Source of the DNA: Moraxellaceae bacterium REDSEA-S32_B1
Lineage (GTDB): Bacteria > Pseudomonadota > Gammaproteobacteria > Pseudomonadales > Moraxellaceae
Direction: 5' to 3'
DNA length: 64,000 bases
Assembly (NCBI GenBank): GCA_001626925.1
Contig: LUOR01000005.1
Location: 1 to 64,000 of the forward strand
Below are positions 1-59,400 of the stretch, in pieces. The stretch's first letter is position 1. Each line of letters starts with the position of its first letter. Position numbers and translations under genes: made by a program. Under the pieces are notes generated by a model. That model worked only from the letters and a program-made list of their open reading frames with translations. It was not told the DNA's origin and searched no databases.

Positions 1-1
1 G

Positions 2-67
2 AATTGGAAAGCTGCCATGAATCGCTTTAGTATCATGTTTGAAGAGCGTGTAACCAAGTATTTTTAA
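2..67 (+). pseudogene. C-terminal fragment of an IS256/mutator-type transposase (cut by window edge)
   Basis: Frame 2 is open from the window edge and encodes about 21 residues (NWKAAMNRFSIMF... to KYF) before a TAA stop. The pattern W-x-x-A-x-N-x-F-x-I-x-F-x-x-R resembles the extreme C-terminus of IS256 (mutator) family transposases. The rest of the gene is outside the window, so whether it is intact cannot be judged. The family call rests on a short stretch recognised by memory. Confidence 0.45.
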
Positions 68-68
68 A

Positions 69-100
69 TCTGCATTTACACAGAATTATTTACACACTCC
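69..100. repeat. Probable right terminal region of the IS256-like element
   Basis: Directly after the transposase stop lies an AT-rich stretch with the repeated word TTTACACA...TTTACACA, reminiscent of IS256-family terminal inverted repeats. It ends where the degenerate GNAT-like sequence begins near 103, which supports an element boundary there. The matching left inverted repeat and the target duplication are outside the window. Confidence 0.35.
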
Positions 101-102
101 AA

Positions 103-327
103 ATATGTTGTCCTCGTGTTTCGAGTGACACATATCGGTCATCTAAATAGCAGTAATTTGTTTCAGCCCATGTTGAGCGATGAATGACATAATGTACACA
201 GCCAAGATCCTCAATACTTTGTTAAGCCAGCCAACCCCCATATGCCCCACCAATCTCAAACGAGCTAATATTGGCAGTAGTAGCAACAAAACTAGTTAAA
301 GGGCTTCCTGACTATTAACGTCATTCG
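103..327 (-). pseudogene. Decayed duplicate of cargo: GNAT fragment fused to benE fragment
   Basis: Bases 103-~225 closely match 1582-~1708, inside the intact GNAT gene, with scattered substitutions. Bases ~226-327 match 2131-2235, near the 3' end of the BenE-like gene, with more substitutions. Orientation and order are the same as in the intact copies, but about 425 bp between them are missing, so this is a deletion-joined remnant of a second copy of the cargo. No open frame survives. The left edge abuts the IS256-like end, which probably inserted into it. Confidence 0.8.
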
Positions 328-358
328 ATTTTTCTCACTTTACCTGTTGAGCATTTAA

Positions 359-616
359 TTACGATTCATTGTCTAATAGATCTAAAGGGCAAGGAGTATA
401 AATATTATTAGTTCCTAATAATTGAATAGTGTCGCCTTTGTGCATGAGGAACCTGGTATCTTCTATGACCTTTTGAAGTTCAAAGGCAAGTTCATCGTGG
501 GGCTGCAAATAGTTTAGAAAGATTTTCAGATCACGAAGTGGTTGTGTTGAATTTGCCTGAAAATGTCCCAGTAGTTTTCCATGTCGGTGTATAGTTAATT
601 GGTAACCTTGGCTCAT
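359..616 (-). CDS. Hypothetical protein, 85 aa, in the transposon cargo
   Basis: I do not recognise this small protein. It starts three bases after the yggS stop on the same strand, so the two are probably cotranscribed and perhaps translationally coupled. The sequence (MSQGYQLTIHRHGKLLGHF...) shows no signal peptide, membrane segment, cysteine cluster or obvious helix-turn-helix. It is mildly acidic toward the C-terminus and looks like a small soluble domain. It ends about 30 bp from the decayed cargo remnant, so a 3' truncation of a longer ancestral gene is possible. Confidence 0.55.
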   Translation of the reverse strand: MSQGYQLTIHRHGKLLGHFQANSTQPLRDLKIFLNYLQPHDELAFELQKVIEDTRFLMHKGDTIQLLGTNNIYTPCPLDLLDNES

Positions 617-619
617 ATT

Positions 620-1345
620 TTATTTCTCCGACCAGTAGTGGTTATCTGGTAATGCTCTTGCCCCAAAAATAGCCTGTCCAATTCGAATGTCTGTTGCCCC
701 TTCCTCAATAGCAGTTTCAAAGTCCCCAGACATGCCCATTGATAGGCGTTGTACTTCTGGATAAACTTTTTGAATGCTGTCTCGTAAGTTTCGTAAGGTG
801 CGAAAGCAACGTCTAACCTCGACTAAATCTTGGCTATGTATGGCGAGAGTCATTAGACCAACGATGTTGATTTGTGAAAATTGCTGACACTGCTCAATGA
901 GGGACAAAGCTTGTTCAGGTTTAACTCCGAATTTGCTTTGTTCATTAGATGTATTTACTTGAACAAAAACAGGGATTTTTCTTTGTTCTAAAGTTAAGTA
1001 ATGATTCAATTTTTCAGCAAGTTTTAAGCTATCCAGAGCATGGAATTCGTCAATAAACTTTGCCACGAATTTTACCTTATTGCTTTGAAGGTGCCCAATT
1101 AACATCCAACGAATAGGTAAGTGTTTCAGTAACATATATTTATCATGCGCTTCTAACACTTTGTTCTCACCAAAGCATTGAAAACCAAGCTGGTACGCTT
1201 GTTCGACACGTTCTGCTGTCAAAGTTTTCGTCACAGGAAGTAGGCGAATCTCATTGGGGCTTCGACCTATCCTTTGACATGTAGCACTTATTTGTTGCTG
1301 AACATTTTGAAAACTCTGATGTAATTCTATCAATTTAATAGTCAT
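620..1345 (-). CDS. yggS: YggS/PROSC-family PLP-binding protein
   Basis: This is a member of the YggS/YBL036C family, single-domain alanine-racemase-fold proteins that bind pyridoxal 5'-phosphate and buffer the cellular PLP pool; no enzymatic reaction is known for the family. The PLP lysine is expected in the motif LLPVTKT near residue 39, and the family signature LMTLAI and the C-terminal SMGMSGDFETAIEEGATDIRIG-type phosphate-binding segment are present. The ORF track starts at a GTG nine codons upstream; I prefer the ATG giving MTIKLIEL, which matches family N-termini. It lies 76 bp downstream of the GNAT gene on the same strand, and its position in a transposon suggests an extra copy besides a chromosomal one, which cannot be checked here. 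Confidence 0.9.
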   Translation of the reverse strand: MTIKLIELHQSFQNVQQQISATCQRIGRSPNEIRLLPVTKTLTAERVEQAYQLGFQCFGENKVLEAHDKYMLLKHLPIRWMLIGHLQSNKVKFVAKFIDEFHALDSLKLAEKLNHYLTLEQRKIPVFVQVNTSNEQSKFGVKPEQALSLIEQCQQFSQINIVGLMTLAIHSQDLVEVRRCFRTLRNLRDSIQKVYPEVQRLSMGMSGDFETAIEEGATDIRIGQAIFGARALPDNHYWSEK

Positions 1346-1421
1346 ATCATTATAGATCCAAAGTAAACTCACTCAGGATCTGTAATCTGCAGCGAGAATG
1401 GAGTGCGGTTCAAAAGTAATT

Positions 1422-1877
1422 TTAGTTTAGAGGCATGCGGTACTCAATAATCCCTGGTTTATCAGCAATCCAGTTATAAAGTTTCTGGGCTGTGTGGTTC
1501 GTTTCTTGTGTATGCCAATACAAGCGGTCGCAACGTTGGGCAATCGCTTGTTTTTGTACATATTCAATTAGGCGTTTACCGATATGTTGTCCTCGTGTTT
1601 CGGGTGACACATATAGGTCTTCTAAATAGCAGTAATTCGTTTCAGCCCATGTTGAGCGATGAATGACATAATGTACAAAGCCAAGAACCTCTATACCTTG
1701 TTTGGCAACCGCACAGTAAACAGGTTCAGCTTCTTCAAAAAAACGTTGCCATGTTGATTCAGTCACTTTATTGGATAAACTTACTTGGTAAAAATCCTGA
1801 TAGGCCAACCAGTAAGGTAACCATTGTTGATAATCCTGTTGTTGTACAGGAATGACCTGAATGTCTTGGTTCTGCAA
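1422..1877 (-). CDS. GNAT-family N-acetyltransferase (cargo)
   Basis: A 151-residue single-domain GNAT enzyme that would transfer an acetyl group from acetyl-CoA to an amine; the substrate is unknown. The acetyl-CoA pyrophosphate-binding motif A is visible as RGQHIGKRLIEY near residue 95, preceded by the strand YLEDLYVSPETR and followed by the typical LYWHTQETNHTAQKLYNW motif B. The start is a TTG, supported by a GGGAG Shine-Dalgarno 7 nt upstream; the nearby ATG is out of frame. A bipartite operator identical in spacing to the one beside the MocR gene lies 74 bp upstream of the start, which suggests control by that regulator. yggS follows on the same strand. A degenerate copy of part of this gene lies at 103-225. 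Confidence 0.85.
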   Translation of the reverse strand: MQNQDIQVIPVQQQDYQQWLPYWLAYQDFYQVSLSNKVTESTWQRFFEEAEPVYCAVAKQGIEVLGFVHYVIHRSTWAETNYCYLEDLYVSPETRGQHIGKRLIEYVQKQAIAQRCDRLYWHTQETNHTAQKLYNWIADKPGIIEYRMPLN

Positions 1878-1950
1878 GGTGATACTCCCATTATTTTTAA
1901 TATTTAAAAAAAGATGGGAGAATCATAATATTGATAGAGAGTAGCTCTAA

Positions 1951-1983
1951 GGTACAGTTTTAATTTTTTTTATAGTACCAGTT
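1951..1983 (+). promoter_or_regulatory. Candidate MocR operator upstream of the GNAT gene
   Basis: The arrangement GGTACAGTTT-N13-AGTACCAGTT is found here, and GATACAGTTT-N13-AGTACCAGTT at 3344-3376 beside the MocR gene. Half-sites, orientation and 23-bp period are identical, and both spacers are A/T-rich. The two halves are themselves imperfect direct repeats, as is usual for MocR-type (PdxR/GabR-like) regulators. Its left edge lies 74 bp from the GNAT start, against 68 bp for the benE-like gene, so both minus-strand genes have it at a similar upstream distance. Confidence 0.7.
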
Positions 1984-2073
1984 TACTCGAACTATTTTAT
2001 TTCTGATCTTAAAGGAAAACAGTATATCTAATATACTGTTTATCGGATGCCCTTTATAAAAAATTAATGAATG

Positions 2074-3276
2074 TCAGCGAATAGTATAAGTTTTGAAGTT
2101 ACCATTTAAAATGAGATAAGTCAGCAAGCCCAATACCAACCCCCAGAATGCTCCACCAATCCCAAACAAGCTAATATTGGCAGCAGTGGCAACAAAGGTA
2201 ACTAAAGCGGCTTCCCTACTATCAACTTCACTCATGGCATTCGCAAGGCTCCCTGCAATCGTGCCTAATAAGGCAAGCCCTGCCAGTGTGCTAATAAATG
2301 CAGTTGGAAACGCTGTAAACACTGCTGCCAGTGTGACTCCAAAAATCCCGACTAAAATATAAAATATTCCTGCGGCTATCCCTGCGACCCAGCGTTTTGA
2401 TGGATCTTCATGAGACTCCTTGCCTGTACAGATTGCAGCAGTAATTGCAGCTAAATTAAATGCATGTGAACCAAAAGGTGCCATTAACAGAGAACCCAAA
2501 CCTGTTACAGTAAGAATTGGCTTGGCATTGGTTTTAAAGCCATCATTTTTTAAGATCAATAAACCTGGCATATATTGCCCTGTTAAGGTAATAAGGAATA
2601 AAGGTAAGGCAATACTTAATATTGAGTTAATTGAAAACTCAGGAGCAGTGAAAATCGGTGATGCTAACTTCAGCTCTAACCCAGCAAAGTCAATTCGTGA
2701 TTGCAAAACCAAGAAAACAAAGCCGAATACTAATACACTGACAATCGCATAACGTGCTGAAAACCGCTTGGTGATGAGATAAACAAAAAATAATGAAATC
2801 GCCAGAAATGGGTCAACGGTCATATTGGTAAAAGTAGCAATCCCAAACTGTAGTAGGATTCCTGCTAATAAACCTGAAGCAATTCCAATCGGAATCAGGC
2901 GAATTATTTTTTCAAAATAACCTGTAATCCCTAAAATGACAAAGGCTAAGGCAGAAAGTAAATATGCTCCAATCGCTTCGGCATAAGGTACGGTCACCAG
3001 AGCAGTAATGAGAAAAGCTGCTGCAGGAGTAGACCATGCAGTAATAATTGGTTCCTTTGTATACCAGCTTAATAATATCCCAGTAATACCGACACCAATC
3101 GAAATCGACCATACCCATGAGGCGGTCAGCTCAGGACTAAGTCTTGCCATCTGTGCAGCTTGAAAAATTAAAATAAATGTACCGCCATAATTAACAATGA
3201 CTGAGATTAAACCTGCCATAATTGGGGGTAGCAAATCATTGGAATAGCGCTGAAAAGATGAGTATCGACCTGACAT
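2074..3276 (-). CDS. BenE/YdcO-family membrane transporter
   Basis: A 400-residue polytopic inner-membrane protein with about 12 hydrophobic segments, recognisable as the BenE (benzoate/H+ symporter-like) family, which is related to the NCS2/SulP fold. Typical features are the N-terminal SNDLLPPIMAGLIS segment and the mid-protein GSHAFNLAAITAAICTG motif. The real substrate need not be benzoate; no benzoate catabolic genes are nearby. The ATG has a strong AGGGG ribosome site 7 nt upstream. It is divergent from the MocR-type regulator across a 105-bp spacer holding one operator copy, so it is the likely prime target of that regulator. A decayed duplicate of its 3' part lies at ~226-327. Confidence 0.88.
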   Translation of the reverse strand: MSGRYSSFQRYSNDLLPPIMAGLISVIVNYGGTFILIFQAAQMARLSPELTASWVWSISIGVGITGILLSWYTKEPIITAWSTPAAAFLITALVTVPYAEAIGAYLLSALAFVILGITGYFEKIIRLIPIGIASGLLAGILLQFGIATFTNMTVDPFLAISLFFVYLITKRFSARYAIVSVLVFGFVFLVLQSRIDFAGLELKLASPIFTAPEFSINSILSIALPLFLITLTGQYMPGLLILKNDGFKTNAKPILTVTGLGSLLMAPFGSHAFNLAAITAAICTGKESHEDPSKRWVAGIAAGIFYILVGIFGVTLAAVFTAFPTAFISTLAGLALLGTIAGSLANAMSEVDSREAALVTFVATAANISLFGIGGAFWGLVLGLLTYLILNGNFKTYTIR

Positions 3277-3343
3277 AACCCAACCCCTAAAAATTTAAAA
3301 AATTAAGTAGCAGAGTGTATTTTTAATGATGGTATTGTCATAA

Positions 3344-3376
3344 GATACAGTTTGGTTATTTTTTAAAGTACCAGTT
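3344..3376 (+). promoter_or_regulatory. Candidate MocR operator in the mocR-like/benE-like divergent spacer
   Basis: GATACAGTTT-N13-AGTACCAGTT, the twin of the site at 1951-1983. It ends 5 bp before the regulator's ATG, so binding here would also block the regulator's own start region (autorepression), while it sits 68 bp upstream of the benE-like start, compatible with activation. No Shine-Dalgarno is visible before the regulator ATG, so its mRNA may be leaderless or poorly translated. Confidence 0.7.
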
Positions 3377-3381
3377 AAATT

Positions 3382-4869
3382 ATGGCTACATCACCTTCGG
3401 CTTATTTTCCACACTTGATTTTGCCCAAAGGAAAGCAAATTAAAGACGGTTTGTATTGTATTTTGCGTGATGCGATTTTAGAGGGGCACCTATCTGCAGG
3501 TACAAAATTACCCTCAAGCCGTGCTTTGGCAGAGATGATGTCAATTTCTCGTAATTCAGTTTTGGCAGCGTTAGAGCGTTTGCTTGAGGAGGGTTATTTA
3601 GTCACAAAACCAAGCTCAGGCACGTATGTTGCCGATATTGTTCCAGACCAACTAGTTCAAATTCAAAATGATAGCCAACAAACTGTATATCAGTCCACGC
3701 AAACACTCAACATTAATCCCCATATAGCCAATTTACTACCACATTGGCATGAACAGAGTTTTTCTAACCAAGAAAAGAAAATGTTCCATATTGGTGTGGG
3801 CTGTGTGGATTTATTCCCTCATCAACTTTGGGGAAAGTTATTAGGTCGAGCGTGGCGACAATCCTACTATCAACTCGGACAATTCCATGACCCGCGAGGA
3901 TATTTGCCCTTACGTCAGGCAATTTGCCAGTACGTCCAATCGACACGAGGCTTAAACTGTAATGATGAACAAATTCTGATTGTGAATGGTACACAACAAG
4001 CTATTCATCTAGCTGCTTATGCCTTGCTACAGCCACACGATCAAGCATGTTTGGATGAACCAGGTTACGACTCGGCTCTTCATATATTTCGTAGCTTTGG
4101 CGTAACTGTACAGCCGATTGAAAGTGATGATGAGGGCATGAAAGTCCCAGAGATTATTCAGCACCATGCAGACAGTAAGCTAGTATACACAGCACCCTCG
4201 CATCAGTTTCCACTTGGTGGCACATTAAGTCTTGCGCGACGTTTTGTCTTATTGGATTGGGCGGCCCAACAGCAAAAATGGATTTTTGAAGATGATTACA
4301 ATAGCGAGTTTCGTTATGGCACACACCCCATTCAGGCATTGCAGGGTTTAGACCAACAGCAACGGGTGATTTATGCAGGCACATTTTCCAAAATGATGTT
4401 TCCTGAATTTCGCTTGGGTTTTATGGTCGTCCCTAAAGCCTTAATTGATACATTCAGTTTGGCAAAATACTATACTGATACGCGCAGTTCTTATCTGGAA
4501 CAAGTAGCACTGGCTGAATTTATAAAAGATGGTCATTATGCTCGGCATGTGAGAAAGGTACGTAAAGCCTGTTATGAACGACAGCAGGCTTTAATTGCTG
4601 CAATTCAACATTACCTGTCGGATGTATTGGATGTACAATCTACTGATTCGGGGATACATTTAGTGTGCTGGCTAAAAGGGCATTGGACGGAGCAGGGTTT
4701 TATTGCCCAATGTTTAAAAGTTGGTTTATCAGTCCAGCCATTATCTCGATATTGTCAGACTTCACCACAGGAAAAGGCAGTACTGTTTGGTTATGCGGCA
4801 CATACACCAAATGACATCAAAGAGCATATAGGGAAACTGGCAAAACAAATTCAAAAAGAGAAGATCTAA
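3382..4869 (+). CDS. MocR/PdxR-type transcriptional regulator (GntR wHTH + aminotransferase-like domain)
   Basis: A 495-residue regulator. Residues ~12-85 form a GntR winged helix-turn-helix (KLPSSRALAEMMSISRNSVLAALERLLEEGYL), followed by a linker and a class-I aminotransferase-fold domain. The PLP Schiff-base lysine is expected in AGTFSKMMFPEFRLGF, and DEPGYD and EDDYNSEFRY are the expected cofactor-site motifs. MocR proteins sense PLP adducts of amines or amino acids and usually control a divergent transporter or enzyme gene, which fits the benE-like neighbour. The stop codon overlaps that of the convergent tnsD, so the gene is fused tightly to the transposition module. The effector is unknown. 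Confidence 0.9.
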   Translation: MATSPSAYFPHLILPKGKQIKDGLYCILRDAILEGHLSAGTKLPSSRALAEMMSISRNSVLAALERLLEEGYLVTKPSSGTYVADIVPDQLVQIQNDSQQTVYQSTQTLNINPHIANLLPHWHEQSFSNQEKKMFHIGVGCVDLFPHQLWGKLLGRAWRQSYYQLGQFHDPRGYLPLRQAICQYVQSTRGLNCNDEQILIVNGTQQAIHLAAYALLQPHDQACLDEPGYDSALHIFRSFGVTVQPIESDDEGMKVPEIIQHHADSKLVYTAPSHQFPLGGTLSLARRFVLLDWAAQQQKWIFEDDYNSEFRYGTHPIQALQGLDQQQRVIYAGTFSKMMFPEFRLGFMVVPKALIDTFSLAKYYTDTRSSYLEQVALAEFIKDGHYARHVRKVRKACYERQQALIAAIQHYLSDVLDVQSTDSGIHLVCWLKGHWTEQGFIAQCLKVGLSVQPLSRYCQTSPQEKAVLFGYAAHTPNDIKEHIGKLAKQIQKEKI

Positions 4870-6368
4870 GGAATTAGAAAATTTAAAAAAGAATTGGCTT
4901 CGTAGGTAAGTCGTTCCTCACTTAGACCCGATAATCTTAATACACGCCATCGATGGCTATTTTGATGCTCAAGACTCAGTTTAATCAGTGTTCTACTGAT
5001 ACGCCGAATCTGATAGAAGCTTATGCTTTCACTATATTTTTGTAGAAATAATTGTGTAATGGGTAAAAGAGAAAGGTTCTTCTCAATGGTTGAATTGTTT
5101 GAGGTTTGTTTCATCCACCATTTTGCTGAACGTCTAGGACTATCCAAATCCCAGAGTAAATCATTGTTGAGTTTAATCAACTGTTTTACAAAGGACAAAT
5201 CACGGTTATGCCAATCCATTTTAGTACCTTGAGGGATATATTTCTGGTGAACCCCCCGATTGGTCTCTAATAACCAATGTTTATCGTTCCGGTATAACCA
5301 AGCATATAAAGCAGCATTTAAATCCCGAGCAGGCTTTATACCATTTTGTTTGATCAATCTCAGCCATTTTTCTCGCTGTTCTATTGTGAGATCAGTAATA
5401 CAGCTACTATTGACATCTATGTGATTATGTTTATTTATTTTACGGAAAGAGCGGACTTGGTTGAGAGTATCCACAAATGACCACTCTCTATTGATTAAAG
5501 CCTCAATCGCAATAATATGCTCCAAATAACTAAAGCTTTTGCGATGTTTTCTGAAAATATTATGTAACCAAGAGGTCTCGGAAGTTAAATCGGCTAAACA
5601 ATACTGCTCTAAAAATTTCTTTGACCAACGTGCTGTCATTTTTTCAAAAATTGATTCATGAGAAATCTGCTGTTGCCCCCGACTACAATCATTCTGCCGA
5701 GCCAATTCATAATAAAACATGGTCCATTGTTCATAGCTGGGTGATTCAGATGGCTGTAAGGACAATAACTCTAATAACTTGGACGTAATAAAAATGTGGT
5801 CAGGATTAGCGATGTTTTGTTTTGTTTTAGGACATGATTGATGAGATGGAACTAAAAAATTATGCCGATGCAATGATCTTAAATCCAAATCTGAGTCAAT
5901 GAGTTGACCGTGCTGGGGACAGCAAGCTCCCTGTATTTGCCATAACCGAAACCAATAATATTCACCATATTTCTTTAATTGTTCTGCTAAACATTGTGGG
6001 CAATAACGTAATTTATGAATGGGTGGAATACGTGAGGCATTAATTCCCAAAGCCAGATGAATCGAGCCTCGAGAAAGATCAGTCATCCACATTAAGCATT
6101 GTTGTCGTCTGTTTTCGGGAACAAAAGGGGCATAGATTGGAAACAGCGTATGCTGATAGGCAATATCCTGAACGGTAAATTGATGGTTCGGAAATTGGTA
6201 AATAATCGCGTTTAAGTGACAAGGCAAATCTACAGTTGCAATCACCTTACGGTTTTCAAAGACTTCATCCAGTAATTGTTTGGGACTGTCCAAAGCCAAA
6301 CGAGTCCCTGCCCGAGCCACAGTACTGTAAATCAGCTCGTGTTGGTAAGGCATGGGAAAGTTTAGCAT
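4866..6368 (-). CDS. tnsD: Tn7-like target selector TnsD/TniQ
   Basis: A 500-residue TniQ-family protein. The N-terminal ~160 residues form the TniQ domain with a zinc-binding set CPQC (C123, C126) and CCPQH (C149/C150, H153). The remaining ~340 residues are the kind of C-terminal extension that in Tn7 TnsD recognises the 3' end of glmS. The element sits exactly at that site, so the specificity is consistent. It begins 2 bp after the tnsC stop codon, implying translational coupling. Only one TniQ-type gene is present and no tnsE is visible, so a second targeting route is not encoded in this part of the element. M1 or M6 could be the start; neither has a strong ribosome site. Confidence 0.92.
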   Translation of the reverse strand: MLNFPMPYQHELIYSTVARAGTRLALDSPKQLLDEVFENRKVIATVDLPCHLNAIIYQFPNHQFTVQDIAYQHTLFPIYAPFVPENRRQQCLMWMTDLSRGSIHLALGINASRIPPIHKLRYCPQCLAEQLKKYGEYYWFRLWQIQGACCPQHGQLIDSDLDLRSLHRHNFLVPSHQSCPKTKQNIANPDHIFITSKLLELLSLQPSESPSYEQWTMFYYELARQNDCSRGQQQISHESIFEKMTARWSKKFLEQYCLADLTSETSWLHNIFRKHRKSFSYLEHIIAIEALINREWSFVDTLNQVRSFRKINKHNHIDVNSSCITDLTIEQREKWLRLIKQNGIKPARDLNAALYAWLYRNDKHWLLETNRGVHQKYIPQGTKMDWHNRDLSFVKQLIKLNNDLLWDLDSPRRSAKWWMKQTSNNSTIEKNLSLLPITQLFLQKYSESISFYQIRRISRTLIKLSLEHQNSHRWRVLRLSGLSEERLTYEANSFLNFLIP

Positions 6369-6370
6369 GG

Positions 6371-8059
6371 CTAACTGACCTGTTTGAGCCAGTGGTTAAT
6401 ATCAAAAACTACATTAGTTTGAGCTTTTAAATGTTCATAAAAGCTATGTTCACTTTCTTTTTGTGAGAACTGAAAACGTAAGTCCGCTGTATCTAATGTT
6501 TGCCATTGATCAGTTTTGGTACTTTTACCTTTACTTTGTGATGATTTTGGTTTTAATGATTGTGAACTAGGCTTTTGTGGGATATCTTGATTTAGCCAAT
6601 GCATAATAATAGGGAATAGCTCATTTAATTTTCGATCTGAATGTTCTTTAAATGCCCTTTTAACAAGGGGAATTAAAAGCTGGGAATCATAACCAAGTTC
6701 AAGCAATAGATTATGCAAGCGTATGGATTCAGCATGACCCCGATATTCCGCCAATTGGTCATTTTGATCTAGACTACTTTCTTCAATTCGGGAGATCAGT
6801 TTTAATAACTGCCGATCTATTTCAGGTGTAATCAAGTCGGAATATTCTGCAATTCGTCTTGCATCACCAGAACGTAAAACATCTATAATTTTATGAATCG
6901 GTTTAAAATCTTCCTGAAATGTGGTTTTAAGCAGCTTAACGGTAATACGTTCCAAACCCGATTCAATTGCTCGTATCTGTGCCAGAACGAACAGTTTGAC
7001 TACAATGTCTAGAATACCCTGACTCAGATCAAACCAGCATTGGCGTAATTCTTCAGACAATACAGGATCCGATTTTCTCAACCATTGATACTTCCAGAGT
7101 GAATCAGTAAATGTCATCCATTCGGATTTTCTGACTTTTCCATCTGGAGTGGTGATTGCAGGCTCATTTTTCATCGGTTCCCAATGAATTGAACCCAAAC
7201 CTACCGCTCGACGTGATGAACGGAGATCCTGCTCAAAGATTTGAATTGCTTTAGGTGTCCCGACCATGACGATGGGGAGACTATAAACATTGACTAAAGT
7301 GACAAAGAAATTAAGCATTTCATCCGAATTTTTGGAGCGATTTGCCAGTAAATGTTGAATTTCATCAATGACTAATAAGCCAATGGCATGAAGATGGGCA
7401 ATATGCCCCATAAGCTGTAACAGCTTTTGTTCATTATGGCGTTTCTGCGTATATTGTTTTTCGTAAGTTGTTCCCAATGCACGATCTACGGCACTAAAGA
7501 AATTTAAATATAAAGACTTAAGTGAACCATTATAAGGACAGTCGATTTTTAAATAGACAAGTTGGGTGAAGTTATGCTCAGGGTGGTAAATCTTTTGTTT
7601 GTAATTTCTTAAAATTCGGTTCAGTGTTGTGGTTTTCCCACTGCCAGAAAAACCAATAAAGGTAAGGCTCTGTGCTGTAGAACGTACATCATTAGAGGGT
7701 GTTGGTTCAAAATTGTTGGATAAAGCAACTTGATGGCTACGGTTTAGAATTCGATTAAAGTCGCCAGTCACAATATTCCTCCCCACATAGCCTTTCCTCA
7801 GCATGATGGAGATTTTCTGCTCTAATTCTAAGTGTCTGCGGATAGGATGAAAAAAGTTATTAAATAACTGTGAAATAATATGGGCACGAGTATTATTCGG
7901 TAACTGTCGATCAGATTGTTTAAATTCGATTGAACCTTTTATGGCTTGAATCGTGTCCTGGGCCTCAAAAATAGGTGGCAAAGCCTCAATAAAAGGATTT
8001 CCCTGATAATCCGAAACTGGGCTAGGTGTATATACTGCATAATCATTTTGATTTGTCAT
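6371..8059 (-). CDS. tnsC: Tn7-like transposition AAA+ regulator TnsC
   Basis: An AAA+ ATPase that in Tn7 assembles on target DNA, links TnsD to the TnsAB transposase and confers target immunity. Walker A is GFSGSGKTTTL at about residues 136-146 and Walker B is LLVIDEIQHL at about 229-238, followed by a sensor-1-like VGTP. The ORF track starts at an ATG two codons upstream; the second ATG (MTNQND) has AGGA at 7 nt and is preferred. The length of about 562 residues is typical. The C-terminal ~60 residues are rich in K, S and Q and probably disordered, ending in a segment that may contact TnsA/TnsB. It lies 29 bp after tnsB. Confidence 0.92.
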   Translation of the reverse strand: MTNQNDYAVYTPSPVSDYQGNPFIEALPPIFEAQDTIQAIKGSIEFKQSDRQLPNNTRAHIISQLFNNFFHPIRRHLELEQKISIMLRKGYVGRNIVTGDFNRILNRSHQVALSNNFEPTPSNDVRSTAQSLTFIGFSGSGKTTTLNRILRNYKQKIYHPEHNFTQLVYLKIDCPYNGSLKSLYLNFFSAVDRALGTTYEKQYTQKRHNEQKLLQLMGHIAHLHAIGLLVIDEIQHLLANRSKNSDEMLNFFVTLVNVYSLPIVMVGTPKAIQIFEQDLRSSRRAVGLGSIHWEPMKNEPAITTPDGKVRKSEWMTFTDSLWKYQWLRKSDPVLSEELRQCWFDLSQGILDIVVKLFVLAQIRAIESGLERITVKLLKTTFQEDFKPIHKIIDVLRSGDARRIAEYSDLITPEIDRQLLKLISRIEESSLDQNDQLAEYRGHAESIRLHNLLLELGYDSQLLIPLVKRAFKEHSDRKLNELFPIIMHWLNQDIPQKPSSQSLKPKSSQSKGKSTKTDQWQTLDTADLRFQFSQKESEHSFYEHLKAQTNVVFDINHWLKQVS

Positions 8060-8088
8060 AAACATATCCTAGAGTAGAGTTGGATGTA

Positions 8089-10233
8089 TTAATCCTCATC
8101 ATCTGAGTGATCAATATCTTCCAGCAAGTCCTGATAAATACCAAAAGTAAGTTGGTAATCCTCATCATGTTCCAGCTTCTGTTTGGACTTAGGCATCTGA
8201 ATAATGTTATTTATTGATTCAGATACAGTTTCAGTTGATCGTTCAGGAGGTGAATTTTTCAGGTAATCTACTTTCCTCGCCAAACGTTCATGATTCTTTT
8301 CCCGTTGACGGTTTTCCCTAATGCCTGTAACACGTTGTTTTTTGCTTGATGTTGTCTTTGGTTTTTGAGCATTGGCCTGAGCAATAATAAACTCTATATG
8401 CTCTTCAAGAGCAGCTTTAGATTTATTGGTTTCTAGTTCTTGAATTGCTTGGGTTTGCTTCTGTTCCTGTTGAACGTGCCAAACCTCCCAGAAACTACAA
8501 CCTACAAATTCTCTTGATCTTGGTGCAAGTACAGCTTCCCAATAGTGCAGGCTATCTTCCTGATAAAACACATAAATCATCTCAGCATTACTTGGGTCAT
8601 AAGCGACTTGTAAAGTATCTGGTCTTGAGATTGATTTTTTACGGTGCATCCAGCCTTGTTGATGAATTTCCGCACAATAATAGAATACGCCAAAAACTTT
8701 GAGCCCAAGATCAGATAAAGTTGCTTTCGTTTTAGGAAGCAGTGCAACACGTAATGCCTTTTCGGAAACCTGTTTTAATCTCCCAACTCGGTTTTGTATA
8801 CCCCAGTTCCAAAGATGAATCGGAACTAACGGTAAATCCGTTGGCATATCAATATCTCGGTCATACTTTTTTAATTGGTGTGTCAGGTTGTAGGTGAGGA
8901 TTGAACCAATAATAATTTGCTTGAAATCATGAATTGTTAACGTAGCATCTAGACGATAATCTGAGCCACCTCGTTTTTTTTCTTTAAACGGCTGAACTAC
9001 CCCCTGAGCAAAAGGCTTAAATTCTGCCTGAGCAGTTCTGAAATAACGTTCTACAATAGGTTTTAAATCCCCGCGATATGGCGCAGTATTTTCAATCCGA
9101 ATTGAAAAACTAAGTTCAAGTGCCTCAATTTGATGACCTAATAATTCTCCACGATCCGCTAAAATAGCATCAGGTAATCCAATACAAGGCCACTCACCAC
9201 TAGTAATTTCATAATCATATTGTTTGCATAACTCAACTTTATCAGTCATGGCGACTTGTAGAGCTTGCATTGCGGTTACATATGAAGCATTCTCAAAACC
9301 AATATAAAAACCGACCACCATTCGGCTAAATACATCAGCAATGAAATAAATAGTTGGTCTTCCTACAATACAGGCACGATCAGAATCTGAAACAAGATAA
9401 ATATCGGCAATAGTTGCATCAATCTCATAACGTGATCCTGGTCCTAAGACTTGGGTATTCACTGTCGAGTGAAGTGCCCGAATGTCCTTGTTATAGAGAA
9501 TGGGATTACTACGGGCAGTAAGTTGGGCAATTTTAGGAAATTCACGTTCATAAAAATGTTTAAACTGCCATATAGAGGGAATCTCAGTATCCTGAACATC
9601 AGGAAATAATGAATGATACATTGTATAGAACTTACGATAGGCATAACCTAAGGAATGTTTATCCTTGGTTAACATGTACTTATTGATGTTAACTCTAAAT
9701 AATCGCTCTATGTTTACATCAATAAGTGCCCCTGCGCCTGGCGTAAACTTTCTCGGTCGTCCCAGCTTTTTATCTTTGGCAATTCGTTTACTGCCTTTAG
9801 CACCAGAGTTTTGGTAACTTGGAATAAGTGCATTAGGCATTTGACCTCGTTGCCAATACCTGCGGGCAAGCCTGTAAATCGTCTGGTGAGTAGATTTCTG
9901 TTGCTCTAATATGCGTTTAACTAAATCAAAACGGATAGACGGAACATAGAACTGATCATGTGTAATGAGCGGTTTGATTAACTCCATTCCAGCATCACGC
10001 TTTTGCTGCTGGATACTTCCCTCAATGACTTTCAACAATGCGATATCTGCGAAAGGGTCTTCAATCAATTCTGCTTCATTTGATTCTATAGATTGAATCA
10101 ACTCATTCTTTTCGATCAGAAAGGGGTTGGCACTTGGACTATCAATATCAATCCATGCGATGTGAAAAGGTGTTATTTTAAGGATACGAAAAGATTTATC
10201 TTGCTGTTTATAAACATCATTGATTCGAAACAT
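8089..10233 (-). CDS. tnsB: Tn7-like DDE transposase TnsB
   Basis: The retroviral-integrase-fold transposase that binds the transposon ends and joins 3' ends to target DNA. The catalytic triad is visible as D in YEIDATIADIY, D in ILADRGELLGH and E in IVERYFRTAQAEF, at about D272, D360 and E395 in this numbering. An N-terminal helical DNA-binding region precedes it (GRPRKF linker near 160), and a basic C-terminal tail with KKQRVTGIRENRQREKN may contact TnsC. I start it at MFRINDVYKQ because GGAGG lies 9 nt upstream; the ORF track begins ten codons earlier. With this start it overlaps the tnsA 3' end by 17 bp, as expected for coupled translation of partner subunits. Confidence 0.94.
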   Translation of the reverse strand: MFRINDVYKQQDKSFRILKITPFHIAWIDIDSPSANPFLIEKNELIQSIESNEAELIEDPFADIALLKVIEGSIQQQKRDAGMELIKPLITHDQFYVPSIRFDLVKRILEQQKSTHQTIYRLARRYWQRGQMPNALIPSYQNSGAKGSKRIAKDKKLGRPRKFTPGAGALIDVNIERLFRVNINKYMLTKDKHSLGYAYRKFYTMYHSLFPDVQDTEIPSIWQFKHFYEREFPKIAQLTARSNPILYNKDIRALHSTVNTQVLGPGSRYEIDATIADIYLVSDSDRACIVGRPTIYFIADVFSRMVVGFYIGFENASYVTAMQALQVAMTDKVELCKQYDYEITSGEWPCIGLPDAILADRGELLGHQIEALELSFSIRIENTAPYRGDLKPIVERYFRTAQAEFKPFAQGVVQPFKEKKRGGSDYRLDATLTIHDFKQIIIGSILTYNLTHQLKKYDRDIDMPTDLPLVPIHLWNWGIQNRVGRLKQVSEKALRVALLPKTKATLSDLGLKVFGVFYYCAEIHQQGWMHRKKSISRPDTLQVAYDPSNAEMIYVFYQEDSLHYWEAVLAPRSREFVGCSFWEVWHVQQEQKQTQAIQELETNKSKAALEEHIEFIIAQANAQKPKTTSSKKQRVTGIRENRQREKNHERLARKVDYLKNSPPERSTETVSESINNIIQMPKSKQKLEHDEDYQLTFGIYQDLLEDIDHSDDED

Positions 10234-11020
10234 GGCGAATGTCCTCCCACACTTCAATATCACCTAATGTAATTTCAGATAATTTGAGCTTTTTATAGTC
10301 CTTGGTGATATCAAAAATAAAATAACGTTGAGCAAGAAGCTCTCGAATTTCTGATAGCGATGAACCCAGTTCTAAATCATAGGCCTGATCTACTTTTTTA
10401 CTTAATTCGATTAATGTGAGATGAGGGTATTGAGCAAATTTTTGCATATAGTCATCAAGCTTTTCATAAACAGGAAGAGAAGATTCCCTCATAGCAGGAT
10501 AGAGCCATTTGATATTGTGAAGTACAGTCGCAGGAATATCTTTTTCTGTAAGAATGTACCAAGGTATCTTTGTGCTTTCCCAATATCTTCGTTCTAGCTC
10601 AAGCTTTTCAATGGTTCTGATATCCTCCAAATCTGTTACGTACTTGGTTTGGAGAACAAAATTGGGTTGCATGGAATCTTTACGATCTACATAAAAATCT
10701 GAACTCATAATTTGTAAGGTATTGCGCACTCTGGGATGAGTAATTTGAGCTTGTTCTGCAATTTGAGTTGTGGCTTGAAGTGGTAAAGGAAATTGTTCTC
10801 GAATATCAGTAACTGATGGATTCCAGTCTAAAAGTAGAAAGGTTGCAAGTTCTAAATCAGACAATAAGTGATGTGTACGTTTAGTTGTGTGCCCATATAC
10901 CCGATGTGAGCGACCTTTTGAACCAAAATCACGAACAGTCACCCAAGGCTTATAACTCTTTAAGTAGCCCTGACCACGACCTTCTTTAATCCAATTGCCT
11001 TGTTGTTTTTCAGTCGCCAT
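10217..11020 (-). CDS. tnsA: Tn7-like endonuclease TnsA
   Basis: The endonuclease subunit that cleaves the 5' strands at transposon ends, making excision cut-and-paste. At 267 residues it is close to Tn7 TnsA. The three catalytic residues known for Tn7 (E63, D114, K132) appear to correspond to E57 (SDLELA), D108 (SSDFYVD) and K126 (VLQTK), all shifted by the same six residues, so the enzyme looks intact. The N-terminus (GNWIKEGRGQGYLKSYKPW) is the typical TnsA opening. It is the first gene of the tns operon; its start codon lies 4 nt after a 12-bp hairpin that contains the ribosome site. Confidence 0.94.
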   Translation of the reverse strand: MATEKQQGNWIKEGRGQGYLKSYKPWVTVRDFGSKGRSHRVYGHTTKRTHHLLSDLELATFLLLDWNPSVTDIREQFPLPLQATTQIAEQAQITHPRVRNTLQIMSSDFYVDRKDSMQPNFVLQTKYVTDLEDIRTIEKLELERRYWESTKIPWYILTEKDIPATVLHNIKWLYPAMRESSLPVYEKLDDYMQKFAQYPHLTLIELSKKVDQAYDLELGSSLSEIRELLAQRYFIFDITKDYKKLKLSEITLGDIEVWEDIRHVSNQ

Positions 11021-11081: not shown

Positions 11082-11149
11082 TAAGATGATACTTTATTAC
11101 CTAAGATGATACTTTATTACTTAGGGTGATACTTTATTACCATAATACA
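11082..11149. repeat. Tn7-like right end: three tandem 20-bp TnsB-site repeats and terminal TGT/ACA
   Basis: Three copies of a unit ending in GATACTTTATTAC occur at 11082-11100, 11102-11120 and 11122-11140, exactly 20 bp apart; the third has two substitutions. Nine bases further the sequence reads ACA at 11147-11149, the expected terminus (TGT on the minus strand). Tn7's right end similarly has closely packed TnsB sites, although Tn7 has four. The innermost repeat is ~60 bp from the tnsA start, so TnsB binding may also repress tnsA transcription. Confidence 0.85.
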
Positions 11150-11210
11150 GCTCGGCTTTATGGGTTGAGAAAATTACTCCACGGTTACGCTTTTGGCGAG
11201 ATTTCGAGGT
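11150..11210 (-). other. attTn7: glmS 3' end and insertion point
   Basis: The glmS stop codon occupies 11174-11176, and 24 nt separate it from the transposon terminus at 11149, the spacing used by Tn7. The five bases adjoining the element (11150-11154, GCTCG on the plus strand) are the expected target-site duplication, but the second copy is outside the window. The last ~35 bp of glmS, coding for the C-terminal DQPRNLAKSVTVE, correspond to the TnsD recognition region. Confidence 0.75.
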
Positions 11211-13012
11211 TGATCGACATCGGTTCCACGCAGTACCGCAACATGATATGACAGCAGTTGTACAGGTATACTATAGATGATCGGTGCAAGCCATTGGGAA
11301 ATTTGAGGGATGTGCACCACATGCTGGCGGTCCTTTTTGTGGATACCGCTATTTTCATCCGCAAAGACGAACAACTCGCCACCACGGGCTTGTACTTCTT
11401 CCATATTCGATTTCAGCTTATCAAGCATGTCATCTTGTGGCGCCAAGATCACTACAGGCATATCATTATCGACCAGTGCCAAAGGTCCATGTTTAAGCTC
11501 ACCAGCCGCATAGCCCTCGGCATGGATATAGGAAATTTCCTTGAGCTTCAATGCGCCTTCCAATGCAATTGGATAATGCGTGCCACGACCTAAGAATAAG
11601 CAGTGTGCCTTTTCAACAAATAGCTCAGACAGGCTGAGAATCTTGGCATCATGTTTAAGCGTTTCATTCAGCACTTTTGGACAATGCCAGAGTGCTTGGA
11701 TCAATTCTAATTTTAATTCAGTGGCAATCGATTGCTTCACTTCACCGATTTTTAAGATCAAAAGCATCAGCGCAGCTAGCTGAGTGGTAAAGGCTTTGGT
11801 CGATGCCACGCCAATCTCAGGTCCTGCAAGGGTAAGCAAATGAAAATTGGTTTCACGAATCATTGATGAAGTCGATACATTACAAATCGCCATAGTGTAA
11901 ATCGGCGTATTGCTTGCTTTGGCACGTTTTTGAATATCGCGTAACGCTGCCAAAGTATCTGCGGTTTCACCTGATTGCGAGATACATAGATACAAGGTAT
12001 TGGCAATAATTACAGGATGACGATAGCGGAATTCACTGGCGATTTCGATCTGACATGGCAAGCCGATGATTTGCTCAAACCAATATTTCGCCACCAGTCC
12101 TGCATGATAACTGGTACCACAGGCAATGATCTGCACATGCTGGACTTGCGTCAATGCAGGATTGGCATGTTCTAAGAAGTTTTCTTTTAAGGCATTACCA
12201 TCAAGCGCTTGGGCAATGGTTTGTTGCACAGCGTTGGGTTGTTCAAAAACTTCCTTGAGCATAAAGTGACGATATTCACCTTTGCTACTGCTCATGACGG
12301 TGGCATCTAGCTCAGTTACTGGGCGCTCGATGGCTTGACCGTGGGCAAAGATCGCCACGCTATCCCGCTTCAAACGTACCGTATCGCCTTCTTCGAGATA
12401 GATAAAACGATTGGTCACAGGTAGCAATGCCAACTGATCGGAGCTGATAAAATATTCACCAATACCCACTCCGATGACCAATGGCGAACCTTCACGTACC
12501 GCAATCAGTTCATCAGGTTGATTGGCATCGATAATGCCGAGCGCATACGCACCTTTGAGTTTCGGAATGATGGATTGCACAGCAAGCAATAAATCGGCTT
12601 GATTTTTCAGCGCATGATGTACCAGATGCGCCACCACTTCAGTATCTGTTTCAGACGTAAACTGATAGCCAAGCGCTTGTAACTCGGTTTTTAATTCTTG
12701 GTAATTTTCAATAATGCCGTTATGTACCACAGCAATATTGTGTGAGGTATGCGGATGGGCATTATGCTGTGACGGCTTGCCATGCGTCGCCCAGCGAGTG
12801 TGTGCGATACCGACATTGCCATGAATACCACTTTGTTCTGCGGCGTGCAAAAGATTGTCAACCTTGCCGACTTCACGCTCACGGCTAAGCTGACCCGATG
12901 CGATCAGTGCCAAACCTGCGGAGTCATAACCACGATATTCCAGACGTTTCAGTCCTTCGAGCAAGACCCCTGAAATATTACGCTCAGCGATACCACCAAC
13001 AATTCCGCACAT
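11174..13012 (-). CDS. glmS: Glutamine--fructose-6-phosphate aminotransferase (isomerizing)
   Basis: The first step of UDP-GlcNAc synthesis: fructose-6-phosphate plus glutamine to glucosamine-6-phosphate plus glutamate. At 612 residues it has the usual length. The N-terminal glutaminase domain starts with MCGIVGGI, leaving Cys1 as nucleophile after Met removal, and two SIS sugar-isomerase domains follow (SQSGETADTL; AYAAGELKHGPLAL). The C-terminus DQPRNLAKSVTVE is the conserved end that serves as the Tn7 target. It lies 58 bp downstream of glmU, so a glmU-glmS operon is likely, and its transcripts point directly into the transposon. Confidence 0.98.
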   Translation of the reverse strand: MCGIVGGIAERNISGVLLEGLKRLEYRGYDSAGLALIASGQLSREREVGKVDNLLHAAEQSGIHGNVGIAHTRWATHGKPSQHNAHPHTSHNIAVVHNGIIENYQELKTELQALGYQFTSETDTEVVAHLVHHALKNQADLLLAVQSIIPKLKGAYALGIIDANQPDELIAVREGSPLVIGVGIGEYFISSDQLALLPVTNRFIYLEEGDTVRLKRDSVAIFAHGQAIERPVTELDATVMSSSKGEYRHFMLKEVFEQPNAVQQTIAQALDGNALKENFLEHANPALTQVQHVQIIACGTSYHAGLVAKYWFEQIIGLPCQIEIASEFRYRHPVIIANTLYLCISQSGETADTLAALRDIQKRAKASNTPIYTMAICNVSTSSMIRETNFHLLTLAGPEIGVASTKAFTTQLAALMLLILKIGEVKQSIATELKLELIQALWHCPKVLNETLKHDAKILSLSELFVEKAHCLFLGRGTHYPIALEGALKLKEISYIHAEGYAAGELKHGPLALVDNDMPVVILAPQDDMLDKLKSNMEEVQARGGELFVFADENSGIHKKDRQHVVHIPQISQWLAPIIYSIPVQLLSYHVAVLRGTDVDQPRNLAKSVTVE

Positions 13013-53292: not shown

Positions 53293-53487
53293 TGCTTAGT
53301 GAATATATAAAGAAAAACATAAAAAATCATAAACTGTTGAAAGCCTGATCAAAAGTGAATTCCAACTAAAAAAGGTTTAGTTTATATATAGGATAACTGT
53401 AACTAAATTAAAAATTTGTTGTAAAAACAAGTAGTACTATTATCATAAAAAAATAAATGCATCACATATTGTGTGGAGATTGTGAAA

Positions 53488-56400
53488 ATGAATAAAATAT
53501 ATCGTGTAATTTGGAATGCTTCACAGGGCGTGTGGGTCGCAGTCTCTGAAATTGCAAAAGCCAAAGGCAAAACAAAATCGATCAAAAAAGCGACCGCTAT
53601 CGGTGTATTAACAATAGTCACTTCGACGGGTGCAATAGCAGCTCAAACGATTGATGATGATTTGATTGTTAATGGAGACATTACTGTTTCTGGCACGGTG
53701 GATGGTGTCGATGTTTCTGATTTGGCGACCACTGTTGCAGATAAAGCAGATCAAACCGCTTTAGACGGTTTAGCTACGACTGTGAACTCGAAAGCAGATC
53801 AAACCGCTTTAGACAGTCTAACCACGACTGTAAATACCAAAGCAGATCAGACCGATTTAGATACATTATCAAACCAAGTGAATGACGCAACCACTGGTTT
53901 AGATACTAAAGCTTCGCAAACAGACTTGGATGACTTATCTGATGTGGTTGATACCAAAGCAGATCAAACAGATTTAGATAGTTTAACAACAACAGTAAAC
54001 AGCAAAGCGAATCAAACTGATCTAGACACATTATCCAGTCAAGTCAATGACGCAACCACTGGTTTAGATACCAAAGCCTCGCAAACAGACTTGGACGACT
54101 TGTCTGATGTGGTTGATACCAAAGCAGATCAAACCGATTTAGACAGTCTAACCACGACTGTAAATACCAAAGCAGATCAGACGGACTTAGACACATTATC
54201 AAACCAAGTGAATGACACAACCACTGGTTTAGATACTAAAGCTTCACAAACAGACTTGGATGACTTATCTGATGTTGTTGATACCAAAGCAGATCAAACC
54301 GATTTAGATAGTCTAACAACAACAGTAAACAGCAAAGCGGATCAAACTGATCTAGACACATTATCCAATCAAGTCAATGATCCCACTACTGGCTTAGCGA
54401 CCAAGGCGAGCCTCGCTCAAGTCGCAGCAGCCAAAACCGAAGTGGTAGCAGGCGATAATATTGCAGTAACCACGAGCACAGGCTCCGATGGACAGACGGT
54501 TTATAACGTCGCAACAACGGATGATGTCAACTTTAACCAAGTGACAATTGGTGATACAGCTGGGGACAATACCGTATTGACCAGCACATCAGCTGGTTTA
54601 GATGTAGGTACTGACAAAATCACCAATCTTAGCAATGGGGATGTATCAGACGGCTCATCTGATGCGATCACTGGTGATCAGCTATACGACCTGAGAACAG
54701 AGTTGTTTGGTGATAGTGCCACGCCTGCGAGTGGCATTAAATATTTTAGAGCGAATTCGACATTAGATGATGCTGCGGCGATAGGTACCGATTCGGTAGC
54801 GATAGGTCCTGAGGCACAGGCACAAGGCACATCCAGTATTGCGATGGGGCAAGCGGCAACCGCATTGGATAGTAGCGGTATTGCGATCGGTGCCGAAAGT
54901 CAAGCATTAGGCGGTAATAGCACAGCGATTGGTTCGGCAGCGACGAGTCGAACCATTAGTGTTGAGTATGAGTCTGCAACTTCGACCACTGTAATCGCAA
55001 TCAATGGCATTCCAGTGGAGGCAACCAGTAGTACAGCAGGTAGTCAGGATATTAACAATCTGACGATTACATCGATCAATGGTGTCGATGTAAGTACCAA
55101 TGCACCACTTTACACTCAATTTCTAAGTGCACTGCAAAGTGGTGCAAGTGTCGCACTTGGTGAGAATAGCTTTGCAGCAGGCACGTCTACGCTTGCAGTG
55201 GGTGACTCAAGTGTTGCGCTAGGTGATAGTGCGGTTGCAGGTGCGAATAACTCCACGGCAATCGGTCATGCTGCCAGCTCGTCAGGTAGTGCATCTGCTG
55301 CACTCGGTAACAGTGCCAGTGCCACAGGCAGTGCCTCGACATCGTTGGGGAGTAGCTCTACAGCCAGTGGCTCTGACAGTGTCGCAGTGGGTAGTGGTGC
55401 ACAAGCCTTAACACAAAGCTCTGTATCTATTGGTGATGGCGCTGGTGTTGGCACTGTGGGTACAAAAATTGGTTCTGGCGCAACCACAGATCGTATTGAG
55501 CATATCGCTATCGGTGCTAACTCAGGTCAAAATGTGGTGGGTAACCAAAATATTGCCTTAGGTAGCGGGGCGGGTTCAAACTTATCTGTTGGTGATACCA
55601 CCAGTTCAGATCAAAACATTGCCATTGGTGTCAATGCAGGGAGTGGGCATAATGGTGATAGCAATATCTCTATTGGTGAAAATGCCAACAGAAATGTGAG
55701 CAATAAAAACTTAAGTAAATCTGTAGCGATTGGCTCACAGGCACAATCGGGTAATCAGGCTGTCGTCCTTGGTGCGGATGCTGAAGCGAAGCGTAATAAT
55801 GCACTAGCAGCAGGCTATAGTGCAGAAGTCACAGGTGCTTCTGGTACAGCACTAGGTGCCAATACCACAGCTGGGGCAAGTAATGTTGCGCTTGGTGCAA
55901 ATAGCATTGCATCAACCAATTCAACAACAGCATCATATTTGGTGACAGACACTGTACCGACAGCTGGCTTTAATGTAGTGTCTGTTGGTGGTGGATCAGG
56001 GAGTAATGTGGTCACTCGTCGCATCACCAATGTAGCAGCAGGTGGTGATGCGACCGATGCGGTCAATGTATCGCAACTAAGACAGTTAAACGAAGATGTC
56101 GCTGAGAAACTATTTGGCACATCCGTGACCAATGTGTCCAGCGGGGTGATCACTGATGGTTCAGGCAATAACTATACCAGCTTCTTGGATGCGATTCAAA
56201 ATTTAACTGCAGGTACAGGCACGCCTGCTTCTAGCGATGCGGTTTTGTATAATGTTGGGGATACTACAAAAGTACAACTCACAGGTGCGGGTGGTACAAC
56301 GATTAGCAATGTCAAAACTGATGAAACAGATGGTACTTCAGCTGCCAATGTGGATTATGTCAATAATGCAGTAAAAGATGCTTCAGTCAAGTATGTATCG

Positions 56401-59400
56401 ATTAACAGCACTGAAAGCGAAAACGAAAACAGTCAAGAAGCACATGCTATTGACTCAATGGCGATTGGTTCTGATGTTGCAACAACAAGCGCTGCGACTG
56501 ATAGTGTGGCAATCGGATTTGCGGGTGTAACTGCAGAAAATACCAATACTGTTGCGATTGGTAGCAACACAACTAGTGCCAAAGGTGCATCTTCGATAGC
56601 GATAGGTGATGATGCAGAAGCTTCAAATATCAATAATATTGCAATGGGTACAGATGCAATCGCTGCAGGTATTGATAGTATTGCGATCGGACATAACACT
56701 CAGGTTGATAAAACAGGTGGGCAGTCTGATTATGCAGTGGTGATCGGAAGTAGTGCAGAATCACAAAATGCTGACAATGCTACAGCGATCGGTCATACAG
56801 CCGTTGTGCAAGGTGACCAAGGCATCGCTATTGGTAATATCTCTAAAGCAGTCGGTCGAAACAGTATTGCGATGGGGGATAATGCACTTGCGACAGGTGA
56901 AGATGCTGTGGCAATTGGTGAAAAAAGTAATGCCGTTGGGCGAGAGTCTGTGGCAGTGGGTGATAGTAATAATACCTATGCTACAGAGAGTATTGCGGTC
57001 GGTAAGGGTAACAATGTCGGATTATCCACTGTATTGTCCGGCCAATCACAAACATCGCTCTCCGGTGTTCTCGGTAATGGAAACAATGTCAGAGCGAGTA
57101 ATAGCTTTGCAATTGGTAATGCGAATGACGTAGTCAACGCATCATCCGACACTTTTATTTTAGGCAGTAATGTCACCAATACCACCAATGATTCCGTGTT
57201 CTTAGGCAATGAATCAGGTTTTGTAGCGAGCAATACGACGACTCGAGGCAAAGCAACCTATAACACCGAAACAGTGGATGGTATCGCCTATAACTATGCA
57301 GGTGGTACGGCGACAGGAGTCGTGTCTGTTGGCAATGCGTCAGAGAAACGTCGTATCCAAAATGTCGCTGCGGGTCTCGTCAGTGCGAGCAGTACCGATG
57401 CCATCAATGGTAGTCAGCTCTATAGCACTAATGTTGCCTTAAGTAATTTACAAAAGTCTACGGCGACAAATTTGGGTGGAGGTGCTACAGTCAATAGTGA
57501 TGGTTCAGTGAATGCACCAACGTATACTGTCATTACCAATCCAAGTAGCAATACAAGCACTACCTATAATAATGTTGGTGATGCGCTAACAGGATTGAGT
57601 ACCGCAGTAAATCGACCAATTACATTTACTGGCGATAGCGGTTCTACGCAAAGAAAATTGGGTAGTACCTTAATCATTAAAGGTGGTAAAACTACTGGAC
57701 TCACTGAAAATAATATTGGTGTGATTACTACTGACTCTACCATGACGGTGAAGTTAGCAGAAGATATTGATTTGGGTGCCAATGGTAGCGTCAAAATGGG
57801 TGATACATCCATTGATACGGACGGATTGGTGATCGCAAATACAGACCCAACAAAAGTGGTCAGTATTAAAGATACAGGGATTAGTGCGGGTAGTAATAAA
57901 ATCACCAATGTAGCAGCTGGAGATGTAACAAGCACATCGACTGATGCGGTGAATGGCAGTCAGCTTTATGCGACCAATCAGAATGTCACCAATGCTCAAA
58001 ATACAGCAAATACTGCATTAAGCACTGCCAATAAAGGCTTGAATTTTGCCCTGAACAATGTCAATCCTGACAATCTTGCGCTGGGTGATACGGTTAGCTT
58101 TAATAATGGCACCAACACTACAGCAACTTATGATGGTACCACCAATACTTATCAATATAATCTAAATGACAGGATTACACTCACCAATGCTGGTGGTATT
58201 AGCATTCTTAATACTGCTGGGACAGGAAGCGCCGTTGCGATAGATCAAAGTGGTGTTCAAGCAGGTAATGTTAAACTCAATACCTCTACAGGTAAGATTA
58301 CGGGTCTGACCGCAGGTACAGTGAGTGGCACAAGTACAGAAGGCATTAACGGAACTCAGCTCTTCAACAATGCCAGCTCTGTATCGACTGCACTAGGTGG
58401 TGGTTCAAATGTGAGTTCAACTGGAACAGTTATTGCACCAAGCTACACAGTGACCACGAATCCATCGACTGGTGCAAGCACGACAGCAAACAATGTGGGT
58501 GATGCGTTGAGTGGATTGAACACTGCAGTGAATCAACCATTGACCTTTGCAGGCGATACAGGTGCAGACGTTACACGTCAACTGGGTAGTATATTGAATG
58601 TCGAAGGTGGCGCATCAGGTACATTGACTGATAATAACATTGGTGTAGTTGCGAATGGCACAGACACCTTGACGGTGAAATTGGCAGAAGACATTGATCT
58701 AGGTGCAACAGGTAGCGTGACTACAGGTAATACTGTGGTGAACACTAACGGATTGACCATCACGAATCCGACAGATAGCACGAAGACAGTCAGTGTGACC
58801 TCAGGCGGTATCAATGCGGGTGGCAACGTCATTAGCAATGTTGCAGCAGGCAGTGCAGCGACAGATGCAGTGAATGTATCACAATTGGAAGATGCACAAG
58901 CTGCAGCGACAACCGAAGTTGTTGAAGGCAAAAATATCTCTGTGAGTAGCTCGATTGGTACAGATGGACAAACGATCTATACGGTAGCGACGGATGAAGA
59001 TGTTAACTTTAACCAAGTGACCATTGGCAGTACGACGGGTAATAACACTATATTGACCAGTACAGCAGATGGCTTAAGTGTTGGAGGAGACAAGATCACC
59101 AATGTAGCGGCTGGCACGATCAGTGACACCAGTACCGATGCAGTGAATGGTAGTCAGTTGTATGACACTAACCAACAAGTTTCAAGCAACACCACCAACA
59201 TCGCAAATAATACTGCGGATATTGCAGACAATACTGCAGAGATTGCCAAAGGGCTTAACTTTGGTGATGGCGCAACTAGCAATAATTACGCCTTAGGTGA
59301 CACCATTAATGTGACCGAAGCGGACAGTAACATCGAAACCACGACTACCTCGACGGGTGTATCAGTTGGTTTGGCGGATGATATCAGTGTAGAAAGTGTG

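Follow-up and report, generated by a model that had tools for sequence, protein, structure and literature searches.

A decayed second copy of part of the cargo of a Tn7-like element at glmS, interrupted by an IS256-family insertion sequence

The left edge of the DNA analyzed here, a window of 64,000 nucleotides, raises the question of why pieces of two genes, one for a GNAT acetyltransferase and one for a BenE-family transporter, appear there a second time, and by which route the second copy came into being. An earlier note on this DNA had described these pieces as an eroded duplicate of the cargo, with both genes in their original order and strand and some 425 bp lost between them. The pieces, their neighbors, and the intact genes are the following.

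1–99, plus strand: terminus of an IS256-family insertion sequence (3′ end of the transposase gene and inverted repeat) at the contig start, 97% identical to the A. radioresistens pARA3 element
100–107, no strand: CAAATATG, which would be the right-hand target-site duplication of the IS, identical to the GNAT parent (1579–1586) at 6 of 8 bases
100–223, minus strand: GNAT pseudogene fragment, parent 1579–1702, 93% over 121 bp
224–230, no strand: deletion joint where the parent has about 433 bp (alignment and direct reading of the sequence)
231–326, minus strand: pseudogene fragment of benE (C-terminal part), parent 2136–2233, with a 1-bp deletion
327–358, no strand: second junction, at which the benE fragment meets DNA lying downstream of the 85-aa gene (aligned to A. 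stercoris and A. haemolyticus)
359–616, minus strand: small cargo protein of 85 aa, no Pfam or NCBIfam match; relatives have homologues in the same position (62%)
620–1372, minus strand: YggS-family PLP-binding cargo protein (TIGR00044, 202 bits, cut-off 106)
1422–1877, minus strand: intact GNAT acetyltransferase (PF00583), parent of the first fragment
2074–3276, minus strand: intact BenE-family transporter (PF03594, TIGR00843), parent of the second fragment
3382–4869, plus strand: PdxR-type MocR regulator (NF052282, 419 bits, cut-off 320)

A repeat search of the first 8 kb aligned 103–223 with 1582–1702 in the GNAT gene (93% identity over 121 bp) and detected a direct repeat between 235–301 and 2141–2207 (67 bp, 82%). 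When window 1–345 was used as query against the whole genome, the GNAT block 103–223 was recovered at 93% (E = 6.7e-47), together with a match of 231–326 to 2136–2233, in the 3′ part of benE (E = 3.6e-20, 83%). With such E-values the similarity is therefore not one of short chance words, and order and strand are those of the parent, as had been claimed. The gap between the two blocks measures 433 bp in the parent and 7 bp in the copy, a loss of about 426 bp and close to the original estimate. The parent DNA lost at the joint comprises the 5′ part of GNAT, the intergenic region with an operator-like site, and the last ~60 bp of benE, and a CAACC microhomology is possible there. Only 32 bp separate the benE fragment from the 85-aa gene, at a site where A. 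stercoris and A. haemolyticus, when aligned, have an ArgD-like aminotransferase gene overlapping the 85-aa gene. The decayed start of such an ArgD-like gene was suspected at 327–366 and rejected, 11–15% of shuffled sequences reaching the same score, which is not significant.

The left limit of the GNAT fragment had been attributed to erosion, a reading that has to be given up. In a plasmid search, bases 1–99 match the ends of IS256-family elements on Acinetobacter plasmids with identities of up to 97%, and the transposase of the 97%-identical copy scores 425 bits to NF033543 in a profile search. The tips of the pARA3 element are defined by its flanking 8-bp target repeat GAGGTTCA. Weak GNAT homology persists through 100–107 up to the IS tip at 99; with the tip at 99 and GNAT-like bases from 100 onward, the copy was therefore cut by insertion of the IS. 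The left copy of the presumed target-site duplication CAAATATG is absent from the assembly. Window base 1 is also the first base of its contig (C45), which breaks inside the repeated IS, and nothing further left can therefore be read. The opposite end of such an IS lies at the end of another contig (C3), with the flank TCATAGAC, beside a Bcr/CflA-like MFS gene. This contig was considered as the true left neighbor and rejected, since TCATAGAC differs from CAAATATG and adjacency is unsupported; because of this different flank the genome probably contains at least two copies of the IS. The position of the fragment at the very start of a contig could also suggest an assembly artefact or a chance similarity, which we regard as extremely improbable given the E-values (7e-47 and 4e-20 in round figures), a divergence from the own genes that exceeds read error, and a contig break that is explained by the repeated IS, with its other end on contig C3 next to a different flank.

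Further to the right, the cargo adjoins the transposition genes, and these the 3′ end of glmS (11174–13012).

4866–6368, minus strand: tnsD (Pfam TnsD, TniQ)
6371–8065, minus strand: tnsC (Pfam TniB, Tn7_TnsC_Int)
8089–10263, minus strand: tnsB (Pfam Mu-transpos_C)
10217–11020, minus strand: tnsA (Pfam TnsA N and C)
11082–11151, minus strand: transposon end on the glmS side, with three 20-bp repeats resembling TnsB sites (11082–11141)

With tnsABC and a TnsD/TniQ gene beside glmS at its 3′ end, the element around the copy is by gene content a Tn7-like transposon (tnsABCD). Much further along, the window encodes a 2687-aa protein with many YadA/Hia-type repeats (53473–61536), resembling a trimeric autotransporter adhesin and followed by an OmpA-like protein. 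As for the cargo, we take COG325 to be the YggS family. In a comparative study of MocR-family regulons (PMC5320631), those of the PdxR type, concerned with PLP metabolism, are predicted to include ArgD-family aminotransferases, RimI-family acetyltransferases, PLP-binding proteins of COG325, and a putative pyridoxine transporter of the BenE family. Judged by protein family, the cargo found here (PdxR-type regulator, BenE, GNAT, and YggS) matches this published vitamin-B6 regulon, itself a prediction. A 36-bp direct repeat, TACAGTTT...AGTACCAGTT, located before GNAT (1948–1983) and between benE and pdxR (3341–3376), would be a candidate PdxR operator; it recurs at matching places in three related elements, and the relic has no counterpart of it, the site having been removed by the internal deletion.

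Several Acinetobacter species carry the set pdxR-benE-GNAT-yggS-85aa (window 620–4869) on a Tn7-like element at glmS, and A. bouvetii and A. tandoii have similar pdxR-benE-GNAT sets with no tns genes detected nearby. The three related elements, with tns genes and the same kind of cargo at glmS, are those of A. stercoris, A. haemolyticus, and Acinetobacter sp. ANC 4558. Each has a single GNAT and a single benE gene with an extra gap between them, occupied in ANC 4558 by an MFS gene. In the latter strain the tns genes are partly deleted: tnsC is gone, and an in-frame fusion joins the 5′ part of tnsB to the 3′ part of tnsD (L036:12598-13896), probably an immobile remnant. The A. haemolyticus element contains (L048:5336-7992) a nucleotide-cyclase-like gene beside one for a cyclic-nucleotide-binding-like protein, a pair which by eye resembles anti-phage pairs of the Pycsar/CBASS type. 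Synonymous divergence from the A. stercoris element amounts to 0.25–0.29 in tnsB/C, 0.56 in benE/pdxR, and 1.49 in GNAT, and because it is so unequal along the element, cargo left of benE may have been exchanged in the past, as far as the intact genes are concerned.

Is the second copy still under selection? Compared with the own genes, its GNAT part shows six nonsynonymous and three synonymous differences and its benE part 14 and seven; in the same stretches, the functional genes of the element relatives differ from one another by nonsilent and silent changes in the proportions 5–6:21–23 (GNAT) and 3:7–8 (benE). There is a stop codon between the GNAT and benE reading frames of the copy, and its disabling lesions comprise the IS truncation, the ~430-bp deletion, this stop codon, and the 1-bp deletion, besides the nonsilent excess. 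Given this excess of nonsilent over silent differences, the stop codon, and the indel, the fragment is on sequence grounds a pseudogene with relaxed constraint, and a present function is most likely lacking.

The ancestry of the copy can be read from the sites at which it agrees with the own lineage. Its GNAT fragment is 92–93% identical to the window's own GNAT and at most 84% identical, over shorter stretches, to that of any other species; in a common alignment of this stretch the values are 92% to the own gene and at most 75% to the others. Of the 22 sites that distinguish the own GNAT from the three related elements, 19 show the own state in the copy; the copy is without three later changes of the own gene and has seven private ones. 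In benE the copy shares three own-lineage states and is without four later changes of the own gene. Of 16 changes private to it in this part, five lie no more than 14 bp from the joint. Because of these shared own states in GNAT and benE, the copy is placed as a branch of the own cargo lineage that split off after the latter had parted from the related elements. It is not certain that both parts are of a single age, their identities being 93 and 83%. The two fragments joined together were found in none of 175 other Acinetobacter genomes, only in the own one, and the plasmid search did not find the joined fragment, only the IS part being matched. The earlier note's view of a cargo duplication with decay of one copy is thus upheld, for part of the cargo, by the sister position of the GNAT copy (19 sites), the relaxed constraint, and the absence from other species.

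Import of the fragment from the related cargo of another strain, by illegitimate recombination or an IS-mediated rearrangement, is a very improbable source. The fragment does abut an IS, and over the whole 100-bp stretch its benE part is equally near the own gene (78%) and that of A. stercoris (78%), but the GNAT part is clearly of the own lineage (92 vs. 75%), and the 16 copy-private changes account for the low benE identity.

We consider it probable, instead, that the pseudogene relic originated by duplication of cargo inside the element, followed by decay, internal deletion, and IS interruption. At least the portion from GNAT through the 3′ part of benE would have been doubled in direct orientation by one tandem duplication, with the joint presumably at 327–358, where benE (parent 2233) would have met sequence just downstream of the 85-aa gene. 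The glmS-distal copy, released from constraint, would then have suffered the ~430-bp internal deletion that fused GNAT to benE, gathered substitutions and the indel, and been interrupted by the IS256-family element, although this order of the later events is itself inferred. Homology, order, strand, deletion, decay, and the IS terminus are directly supported. The assembly lacks the left portion of the duplicated stretch, and the extent given for the duplication is thus a minimum.

The joint at 327–358 could equally represent a deletion between two adjacent elements. Two related Tn7-like elements would then have stood in tandem at the glmS attachment site, and a deletion from the distal benE to just downstream of the proximal 85-aa gene, removing the distal tns genes and the intervening ends, would have left the distal cargo as a relic. 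The map, a GNAT-benE fragment followed by 85aa-yggS-GNAT-benE-pdxR-tns, fits a single deletion of this kind equally well; elements with the same cargo are known in three other species, and the variation of synonymous divergence along the element suggests past exchange. Nevertheless, we rate this history as rather unlikely, since the DNA left of tnsD, the interval between the copies included, shows no remnant of TnsB sites or tns genes, no examined relative has two cargo copies at glmS, and the closeness of the GNAT fragment to the own gene is what simple duplication would produce. No tns remnants, the mark of a tandem Tn7-like insertion, lie between the two cargo copies, and apart from the glmS-proximal end the whole assembly, this interval and the DNA left of tnsD included, yielded no TnsB-site array or transposon end. 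The earlier note's deduction of older tandem insertions, or else of an exchange among related elements, is accordingly not borne out. A search of the own assembly with the TnsB-site pattern and with the A. haemolyticus and A. stercoris element DNA found no distal transposon end, and the latter two queries found no further cargo fragments in the genome; TnsB-site arrays are present at both ends of the elements of A. haemolyticus and ANC 4558. The missing terminal repeats mildly favor simple duplication and are compatible with their complete loss. If, as we doubt, two Tn7-like elements with shared cargo had been stacked at a single glmS site and a deletion had fused them to leave this fragment, stacking and collapse could be a route for swapping and reshaping cargo.

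The fragment is a real but ordinary scar of duplication, deletion, decay, and IS insertion. Relics of genes beside insertion sequences are common, and on its own this one is of small consequence; it does document that the Tn7-like element of this Acinetobacter formerly carried some of its cargo twice, and it helps to define a transposon that moves a putative set for vitamin-B6 uptake and regulation between species. With known duplicated-gene pseudogene relics in mobile-element cargo it shares the direct second copy, the internal deletion, the relaxed constraint, and the IS interruption, with no notable difference, the left part being here hidden by the contig end. The surrounding element has in common with Tn7-like transposons at attTn7 the genes tnsA, tnsB, and tnsC, a TnsD-type selector by the 3′ end of glmS, and clustered terminal repeats, and differs in that its distal end is missing from the assembly and its cargo is a PdxR-type vitamin-B6 gene set. 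Compared with the predicted PdxR regulons (PMC5320631), a paper whose main text does not name Acinetobacter, the set described here rides on a Tn7-like element.
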